Shown: positions 5,789-55,732 of the stretch, in pieces | Numbering within the stretch: the first letter of the stretch is position 1 | How the letters are laid out: each line of letters starts with the position of its first letter | DNA from: Paenibacillus sp. D2_2 | GTDB taxonomy: Bacteria > Bacillota > Bacilli > Paenibacillales > Paenibacillaceae | NCBI RefSeq assembly: GCF_031199965.1 | Contig: NZ_CP133605.1 | Coordinates: forward strand, 687,501-751,500 | Direction of reading: 5' to 3' | DNA: 64,000 nucleotides | Translations under genes and position numbers: made by a program | Notes under the pieces: model-generated | The model's database searches: none | What the model saw: only the letters and a program-made list of their open reading frames with translations | What the model was told of the DNA's origin: nothing

Positions 5789-5971
5789 TAACGAAACACC
5801 ATAACGCTATTTACACAATAATGAGGGGAATGGGAATCTAACGAAACACCATAACGCTATTTGGGTAAAAAACCGCAATTTAACCCCTTGGTTCCCATAA
5901 TAGCGATACCCAGTTTCGTTAGAGTATTAATTCGCCCTCTTTGACGTAAATAGCGATACCTAGTTTCGTTA
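5789..5971. repeat. 183-bp mirrored four-unit repeat element (copy A)
   Basis: Four 24-base units are arranged as two direct copies (5789-5812 and 5839-5862, identical, 50 bases apart) and two inverted copies (5898-5921 and 5948-5971, 50 bases apart). The array is symmetric about 5880. All units share TAACGAAAC at one end and CGCTATT at the other. The 7-base middle is ACCATAA in the forward units and TAGGTAT or TGGGTAT in the inverted units. No ORF overlaps it. Another element with the same geometry lies at 55405-55587. Confidence 0.85.
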
Positions 5972-12577: not shown

Positions 12578-14449
12578 TTACTCTTGATCGTCCTTCTGGC
12601 GATCCGGTAGCTGCTGTACATAGCTGTCGGACAAGCGAAGCAGATCAAGCGCCCGATTATATTCATCCTCCGTAGTAAGGGCCTGGCTTACGCCGTCCTT
12701 GGCTAACGGGAACTGAGTACCGTCATCATACCAGGTGCCTGGCATGAACACAGCTTTGTCATTAATAAATGACCCGGAAGGCAGATAGTAACGCTGCGGT
12801 AATAAATTATAATTGTTATTCAGTATATCCTCACCGAAATGGATCTGATTGCCCATAGAGACACCAAGTAGGTTAGCAACGGTCGGTAGAATATCGACCT
12901 GTCCGCCGACATTATCCATAACCTTGGATTCAGTCTGACCCGGAATCGAGATCACGAGCGGGATGTTAAGCATGTCACGGTAGCTGTAATCGCGGCCGTA
13001 AATTTCGCTCATTAGTTCCAGACCTCGCTTATCCAGCGAGAACTTCGGCAATCCCAGGTGGTCACCATAGATTACAACAAGACTGTTATCCCAGATTCCG
13101 CGCTGCTTCAGATCGTCAATGAACAAGCCAAGTGCATAGTCCGCATAATTCTGTGAGCGGATATAATCGCCGACCATATTGTTCTGATAACTCTCCGGCA
13201 GTGTAATCCGGTCCAGCTCGTGCGGAATCGTAAACGGATGATGCGCCGTCATAGAGATAACTTGTGAATAGAATGGAACTCCAGTTGATTGCATTTTGCT
13301 CAGTTCTTCAGCGGTTTTCCTGTACAGCACTTCATCTGAAGGTCCGAAGAATACTGTGTCATCTTGACCGAAGAACTCCTGATCGTAGTAGCGATCCCAG
13401 CCGATCGCTTTGTATAGTTCGCCGCGATTCCAGAAATCTACCACATTCGTGTGGAAGGTAGCGGTATCATAGCCATTTGATTTCAACAGTTTGGGTAGAC
13501 TCGGCAGTTCTTTGTCAGGATAATTCTGTGTTGCTGCTTCATTATAAGGAATATAGAAGGACGTATTCACGACAAATTCGGCATCCGATGTATTTCCTTG
13601 GCCCACCATTTGATAGAAATTCTTGAAATAGAGATTGTCTTTAACAAGCGAGTTCATGACCGGAGTAACCTCTTGCCCGTCGATCTTCAGATCGATCAGG
13701 AAGTTTTGGAAGGACTCCAACTGAATAATTATCAAGTTTTTGCCTTCGGCGGCGCCGAAGAACTGTGGATTTTCTTGTTTCTGAACACTTTTCAGTTTGT
13801 CGATCTTTGCTTGGGTAATTTCATCCTTATCTACGAGATCTTCCTCTTTATTTGATAGAATCGTATAGGTCTCATAGCTAAGAATTCCCATTTGCTCCGC
13901 TTGCTTGATCTCATTCATGCTGGCCCGGTTCGGCCAAATGTTGAAAATACACAGGGCAAGTGATACCCCGGCTACAACCCCTACAAAGCTCTTGCTTACT
14001 CTGTTCAAGTTGAACAGACTCTTGAGTTTTCCGCTCTCTTCCTGCGCATTAGCCAGAAGCCGATCACGACTATATCAAGGAAAATAAGCAAATAATATGG
14101 AGCTAGCAGTGAGAACACACTGTTCTTTACTGCAGTTACCTGATTGACTTGCTGAAGCGCATGATAGGTGACGATAACGCCGTAATATTTATGATACATA
14201 ATTGCTGCGAAGAAGACGGCAGTAACGATCAGGTTAACCGTTAGATAAATCCCGAATTTCCTCTTGGAGGAGAAGACCTCAATCAGACAGAACAGGATCA
14301 GGATAAATGGGAGTTCCTTGAGTAGCGGTCCCAACCGGCATTTGATCAAATATCGTGATCCACGCTAGGTAACTTTTCAGAATCATAATAACGGTGAAGA
14401 ATACGAGCGGCTTGAGATTACCAGGCCGGATTCGTTGGAACGCTGACAT
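12578..14449 (-). CDS. LTA synthase family membrane sulfatase (two frameshifts)
   Basis: Polytopic membrane enzyme of the LtaS/YfnI family, which transfers glycerol phosphate from phosphatidylglycerol to build lipoteichoic acid or its primer. The N-terminal ~200 residues hold about five membrane helices, then a linker helix and the extracellular sulfatase domain. Motifs seen: IIQLESFQNFLI (metal Glu), GQGNTSDAEF (catalytic Thr), MTAHHPF, and YGDHLG (metal Asp/His). Breaks near 14330 (one base extra in GGGACCG) and 14023 (AAAA should be AAAAA) must be corrected to join the parts. ATG 14447-14449 follows AAGGAAGG. Which LtaS paralogue it is cannot be told from one copy. Confidence 0.87.
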
Positions 14450-55259: not shown

Positions 55260-55314
55260 GAAAGTACCTCCTTGTTCCATTAGGTGAAACACAATTTCAT
55301 ATTCCGTTATAATC

Positions 55315-55343
55315 AGTATACCGTCCCCGCTGAAGTGAGTAAA
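55315..55343 (-). promoter_or_regulatory. Predicted sigma-A promoter of acnA
   Basis: On the minus strand TTTACT, 17 bases, TATACT, about 55 bases upstream of the acnA start codon. AATCAGTATA and nearby AT-rich half-sites could bind a regulator such as CcpC, but I cannot confirm this. Confidence 0.45.
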
Positions 55344-55404
55344 GTGTTTTTTGTCCAGTATCTTCTTATATAAATTGAGGTTCAAAAAGGCAGTTTCACA
55401 TTTG

Positions 55405-55587
55405 TAAAGGACGCCAGCAACGCTTATAAGCTAGAAATAGTTGTTTGTAGATTTTAACGGACGCCACAGACACTTAAACGCTGTGAACCCAGCGAAAAGG
55501 GACATTTCTACTAATTAACCTGCATCTATGTCCGTTAGAGATCATAATGTTCGAAATTTTCCCACTAAGAGGCCGTGGTGTCCGTTA
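55405..55587. repeat. 183-bp mirrored four-unit repeat element (copy B)
   Basis: Forward units start at 55405 (TAAAGGACGCC) and 55455 (TAACGGACGCC), 50 bases apart. Inverted units end at 55537 and 55587 (ATGTCCGTTA and GTGTCCGTTA), also 50 apart. The array is symmetric about 55496. The total span, unit spacing and mirror plan are identical to the element at 5789-5971, but the unit core (TAACGGAC) differs from TAACGAAAC. No ORF overlaps it. Confidence 0.8.
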
Positions 55588-55732
55588 TGAGCACTGTGAC
55601 GTTAAGTGTTCTCCAATTTGGATCCATGTCATAAAGTCCGGGTACAGAAACAAGGATACCTCTATTAGTACATACTCATTATTATGCGTTCATATAAATA
55701 GAATGGGTATGTATTAGAAGGAGGCGAGAACC

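Follow-up and report, generated by a model that had tools for sequence, protein, structure and literature searches.

ERIC, BOX, RUP and bcr-type repeats are dispersed imperfect palindromes of 100–200 bp with no known transposase of their own. Transposon ends of the IR/DR kind (e.g. Sleeping Beauty and Tn7) carry at least two binding sites per end in an inverted arrangement. The IS3-family element IS1397 inserts into REP elements, and a folding, bridging or insulating role at operon ends has been proposed for BIMEs. Passages of three papers (PMC3116915, PMC1525189 and PMC2817692) present BIME, REP and REPIN sequences as intergenic, palindromic and present in many copies, with several sequence groups per genome, regularly spaced inverted units, tandem clusters and insertion sequences that target them. 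The 183-base element described here shares these features, its palindromic units being dispersed between genes and mirrored, but differs in having four long units at a fixed 50/62/50 spacing, with no constraint on arm pairing seen. It resembles ERIC, BOX, RUP and bcr-type repeats as a dispersed imperfect palindrome of 100–200 bp without a known transposase of its own; we know of no four-fold, equally spaced sites or coexisting core classes among those repeats. Doubled sites per end and their inverted arrangement are shared with the IR/DR ends, but here the sites take up the entire element, which lacks an internal gene, and resident copies keep their cores.

The window, a stretch of 64,000 nucleotides (687501–751500) of the single 5.75-Mb contig of Paenibacillus sp. 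D2_2 (G000), contains two such elements, copy A and copy B (Table 1). The original prediction had given copy B two direct and two inverted units on the plan of copy A, under a different unit sequence. All four positions held, but the first unit reads TAAAGGAC, one mismatch away from the unit that had been named. Both copies span 183 bases with both spacings of 50 and the same mirror layout, and only 75 of the 183 bases were identical in an ungapped, position-by-position alignment, confirming that one geometry is carried by two sequences. TAACGAAAC was found five times in the window (four within copy A) against 0.39 expected, and none of 100 shuffles reached five. TAACGGAC was found four times (three within copy B) against 1.07 expected, and four or more matches occurred in 4 of 100 shuffles; this count by itself is weak evidence, and copy B stands because of its geometry and its recurrence throughout the genome.

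Table 1. Positions of copies A and B (window numbering) and sites of the IS3-type insertion sequence (G000 genome numbering)
Feature	Position	Strand	Remarks
Copy B, whole four-unit element	55405..55587	.	class TAACGGAC; between the aconitase (-) and Amidase_6 (+) genes, which read divergently
Copy B unit 1	55405..55427	+	TAAAGGAC...CGCTTA, core one base off
Copy B unit 2	55455..55477	+	TAACGGAC...CACTTA
Copy B unit 3, inverted	55515..55537	-	TAACGGAC...AGGTTA
Copy B unit 4, inverted	55565..55587	-	TAACGGAC...CTCTTA
Copy A, whole four-unit element	5789..5971	.	class TAACGAAAC; between the MatE (+) and DeoR-family regulator (+) genes, both rightward
Copy A unit 1	5789..5811	+	TAACGAAAC at 5789
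Copy A unit 2	5839..5861	+	TAACGAAAC at 5839
Copy A unit 3, inverted	5899..5921	-	inverted end 5921
Copy A unit 4, inverted	5949..5971	-	inverted end 5971
IS3-type, inside an element	1988482-1990037		L032, L393; span of the long element with its insert
IS3-type, inside an element	835596		L033, L391
IS3-type, inside an element	3650869		L394
IS3-type, inside an element	5128207		L040, L395
IS3-type, outside elements	1716535		L392; duplication TTAA

A-type units matched 206 places in the D2_2 genome at up to two mismatches, against four for the reversed pattern. The two-block B-type pattern gave 27 exact matches, and seven B-type elements spanning 182–183 bases were found besides copy B; with one mismatch allowed, this pattern was at control level apart from the exact matches (64 vs 52). 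Grouping of A-type units (at least two per group; window and retrieved own-genome stretches) gave 46 groups, 32 of which spanned exactly 183 bases. The others were two groups spanning 182, two four-unit groups over 184, nine three-unit groups and one (L023) that is probably noise. Groups with a span of 183, or of 133 with one outer unit missing, entered the A sequence set (37 in, 8 skipped, L023 excluded), and five more rows lacking an outer unit were then removed from the alignment; the 32 oriented elements that remained had a mean identity of 70% (52–88%). The genome held classes AAAC and GGAC and one copy of GGTT. A further array (L041:1010–1184, at 228.8 kb) consists of dyads TAACGGAC-N6-GTCCGTTA and variants with centres, by eye, about 51, 59 and 51 apart, a related plan with another unit; similar arrays of the TAACGGAC dyad may lie at 2051495, 3177293 and 5477663, known as pattern matches or partial reads.

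In its best form the unit is a dyad, TAACGR-N9-YCGTTA, with TAACG at positions 1–5 opposite CGTTA at 17–21, and this dyad matched 76 places in the genome against 3 for the control. The full dyad is a minority form: CGTTA occupied positions 17–21 in 115 of 256 AAA units and 63 of 275 GAC units, CGCTA and CCTTA being the main variants, and the second blocks of copy B make poor dyads (Table 1). Within units, positions 6 and 16 paired in 60% of 580 units against 31% after shuffling, since one class has A with T and the other G with C, a co-variation that largely mirrors the two big classes, ancestry included, many loci having been retrieved by patterns needing two like units. From the sequences, this suggests a homodimer site whose half-sites change together. 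Among the first 50 places listed, the dyad lay outside three- or four-unit elements twice, at window position 14223 (in a 114-aa ORF) and at a single-unit remnant (genome position 599423); two elements in that list were judged by spacing alone.

A core-agnostic form of the plan (TAACG-N44..46-TAACG-N72..74-CGTTA), with the reversed pattern as control, was searched in a sample of 98 family genomes. At least five matches were obtained in 48 of them, from 15 genera, and in none with the control; any match was obtained in 63 genomes and 16 of 19 genera, against 28 genomes with at most four matches each for the control. The highest count in one genome was 269 pattern matches, which are not elements, most elements matching once per strand. 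At least six core classes were seen on the one plan (AAAC, GGAC, GGAAC/GGAAR, GGTT, GATT and GCTT/GCTG), several of them in a single genome (e.g. G055). Mixed cores at positions 6–7 occurred in 0 of 30 own-genome elements, 2 of 13 in G248, 0 of 13 in G246 and 8 of 89 elsewhere; eight of the ten were mixed by a single unit and two by two units, and AAAC and GGAC were never combined. The classes probably form one superfamily, since TAACG is common to all of them and often a second block, TTATT or CTATT, as well.

A scan of named genomes returned at least 117 stretches, mostly from Paenibacillus and its relatives, with a few of Bacillus type and isolated chance matches in unrelated taxa. When arm spacing was left free between 40 and 60 and span between 150 and 220, the 117 stretches contained 47 elements with four exact TAACGGAC units, of which 33 were 50/183/50, 13 lay within one base per arm and one was 50/178/45. 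Seventeen more, with both outer units and one inner unit exact, spanned 183 (8), 182 (3), 184 (2), 181, 180, 175 and 173 bases (one each). Forward-to-inverted TAACGGAC distances in the first 80 stretches (n=196) peaked at 133 (76), 83 (47) and 183 (34), and forward-to-forward spacing there was 50 in 48 of 99 cases. Over all retrieved loci, 145 non-redundant elements fitted the plan within 49–51 and 181–186, 116 of them as 50/183/50. The prediction had held spacing and symmetry to be selected, not just copied, and had named widely varying spacing as the finding that would overturn this. Spacing was near-invariant while cores varied, most stretches having been retrieved by patterns that already asked for a spacing near 50, and wide variation was not seen. 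Selection is thus supported by the survey, by the core classes on one plan and by the indel counts between orthologs (14 vs 52, below); since copies within a class share descent, it is the comparisons between orthologs and between classes that carry "not just copied".

The 183-base element belongs to a large intergenic family of Paenibacillus-type bacteria that is apparently undescribed. No description of it was found in the open, as distinct from the subscription, literature on Paenibacillus repeats and MITEs, and searches with the unit words as text gave publications unrelated by title, among the matches listed. No plasmid match was found for copy A, and phages matched copy B only in 28-base stretches of nine Campylobacter phages (E 0.05), which were taken as chance. 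Both arms were present on viral contigs in 0 of 49 stretches with a B pair and 2 of 13 with an A pair; the two contigs of the viral collection, which may be prophage or host DNA, carry A-type arms at L338:8803–8985 and L348:9541–9723.

Flanking DNA is about 89% identical between D2_2 and its two close relatives G248 and G246. Six of the seven A sites comparable in the three genomes were occupied in all of them; the seventh was occupied in G248 and G246, and D2_2 has the lone unit at 599423 there. The copy B site was occupied in D2_2 only; both junctions in the relatives carry further flank changes, compatible with gain as well as with loss. In 13 A ortholog pairs between D2_2 and G248, some chosen since G248 has an element and one with a partner lacking unit 1, identity was 98.5% in core 1 (452/459), 94.7% in core 2 (338/357), 86.8% in the 7-base unit middle, 77.0% in the linkers (521/677), 73.3% in the element centre and 70.4% in the 60-bp flanks (1038/1474). 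Among 21 ortholog pairs, indel events numbered 14 over 3787 element columns and 52 over 2189 flank columns, a per-column rate about six times lower within the element, and the indel-to-substitution ratio differed between element and flank (p=1.8e-4), some flanks aligning poorly, which inflates both indels and substitutions there. Both the cores and the spacing of A elements are thus constrained. Over about 719 kb of the three genomes, all 30 elements detected had at least three units and 28 had all four, the finder requiring two units and lone units escaping it.

Copy number of the element differs between relatives through local duplication, tandem elements at 213–448 base spacing being present at G246:C13:524064–524960 and 554179–554906 and at G249:C1:1221943–1222638. 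At different sites of G233:C1 (L351–L359), most pairs among L351 and L353–L356 were 93–96% alike over 186–212 ungapped aligned bases, a recent multiplication in that genome.

The elements lie in intergenic gaps. No overlap with an ORF of at least 240 bases was found for 45 of 48 elements. Of 50 elements, 48 had two recognisable neighbours, arranged co-directionally in 32 cases, convergently in 10 and divergently in 6, against 73, 5 and 20 for background gaps of at least 200 bases (n=98). Among 237 neighbour proteins neither a strongly recurrent family nor a candidate binding protein emerged, the largest groups having five and four members (by eye response regulators and ABC proteins). The regulon of a single operator was considered and rejected, since nearly all of the first 50 dyad places listed fell within arrays and the neighbouring genes showed no strongly recurrent family. 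An aconitase gene also adjoins a B-type element in Paenibacillus fonticola (L105:3849), on its 3′ side there and on its 5′ side at copy B, and this common neighbourhood is probably a coincidence.

A 1.37-kb IS3-type insertion sequence is present five times in the D2_2 genome, four times inside element units, after unit position 12–13 by eye (Table 1). Two of these four duplicate 4 bases (unit positions 10–13), one duplicates 4–5 bases (9–13) and one is rearranged without a duplication. The long element at 1988482–1990037, considered as an autonomous version, proved to be this insertion sequence within a copy. As IS1397 does with REPs, the IS3-type sequence targets the element, but it is a passenger and not the source of the element. 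Insertion sequences that target REPs, as a passage of PMC1525189 describes them, are a parallel to these insertions.

What the element is for was approached through four readings. Its mirrored units invite pairing, and copy A can be folded into a long imperfect hairpin (−63.5 kcal/mol), so it might be a structured RNA or single-stranded DNA hairpin (REPIN- or attC-like) in which pairing of the arms is selected. No compensatory change was found in 91 arm pairs of the 32 A elements (top z 2.1 unoriented and 1.6 oriented), a test in which the invariant core pairs are uninformative; some arm pairs matched less often than shuffled ones, mainly since the element is polar and present in both orientations. 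Rfam searches were negative, both for the whole window at gathering scores and for 55300–55700 at E up to 1, and an RNA or cruciform function was set aside on these two results. Terminator-like sites preceded the element at 8 of 36 facing gene ends, with 0.4 in shuffles, a further point against this reading; the count covered 41 of the 48 elements, those 7 overlapping or touching an ORF being left out. Nine of 13 element-rich genomes (G000, G246, G248 and six more) lack the Y1 transposase (PF01797), which the other 4 and 2 of 12 element-poor genomes have; a RAYT-driven REPIN was rejected on this result, which also sets the family apart from REPIN/RAYT systems. We consider selected pairing very unlikely: the arms lack compensatory pairing, so folding is probably not the selected feature. 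Nor would the elements be neutral copies of one old repeat in which the geometry common to A and B reflects shared descent only, even though TAACG recurs in every class, often together with the second block. This reading, which we find barely credible, is already contradicted by the rarity of indels and the strong core constraint, and by a plan that holds across genera at a mean identity of 53% (34 named elements of span 183).

The two stronger readings are a site array and a mobile element. The best reading, on which we are evenly balanced, is that the element is a double-stranded DNA array of four putative homodimer sites that selection maintains in situ between genes. Each unit would be a site of about 21–23 bp, best represented by the dyad, and bound by a homodimer. 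Four same-class units, two in each direction (class A dyad centres at 11, 61, 123 and 173), would let four dimers assemble into a compact complex of protein and DNA with two-fold symmetry, in which the linker would serve as a ruler only. Classes, defined by positions 6–9, may each have a reader of their own, a paralogue or an allele of one protein, and the role would most likely be local, to fold, bridge or insulate DNA at operon ends. A spacing that stays near-constant while sequences differ between classes suggests that a specific protein reads the element. Such a protein is likewise implied by tens of elements per genome, near-base-pair spacing across most sampled genera, cores that vary together within an element and clear constraint between species, and the class structure makes it testable. 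The main rival for present function, which we hold possible without expecting it, is a non-autonomous MITE with two transposase sites per end, moved in trans, whose geometry would persist because transposition demands correct spacing. The doubled sites at the inverted ends and the terminal inverted repeats agree with a MITE, as do the closely similar dispersed copies in G233, 298 and 122 matches of one pattern in G246 and G248, the absence of copy B from the same site in both relatives and the uneven spread of classes, the exact A pair being limited to at most 18 of the 245 family genomes. The G233 copies and the tandem elements of G246 and G249 point to multiplication and, like the absence of copy B, count against the array, and at least some members of the family are likely to be of mobile origin. 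Yet resident A copies hold core 1 while their flanks drift, unlike a dead insertion; two-unit remnants were not detected in the 719 kb, although there is at least one remnant of a single unit; the own-genome places listed (100 of 206 for A type) included no autonomous version; no constant target-site duplication was visible at the flanks inspected by eye; and the gain in G246 is partly local tandem duplication. A broader form of the array proposal, which we regard as doubtful, would be a hitherto undescribed chromosome-organising system of the Paenibacillaceae, with several parallel, mutually exclusive classes of four-dimer arrays in a genome, each with its own paralogue of one DNA-binding protein, holding base-pair spacing across genera and folding or insulating DNA at operon ends. 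The family poses a Gram-positive counterpart to the BIME/REP question, in genomes mostly without the Y1 transposase that explains REPs.

Along the D2_2 chromosome, 25 of 32 A elements were co-oriented with replication (Fisher p=0.003), an association confounded by gene direction, 14 of 19 also following the gene strand (p=0.07); in G248, counted by hand among the matches listed, about 27 of 47 were co-oriented and the bias was not confirmed. Positions appeared uneven (chi-square p=0.004 on 53 places) among the matches listed, which favour low coordinates.

Of the 245 family genomes, 18 contained the exact A pair and 80 the exact B pair, some of these matches being head-to-tail 51-bp arrays of another kind. 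In such arrays (L044, L043, Cytobacillus and other records) the tandem unit carries TAACGGAC or TAACGAAAC and is not mirrored, and further ones lie at G041:C13:556530, G082:C80:37526 and G201:C23:52546; they are perhaps a related repeat.
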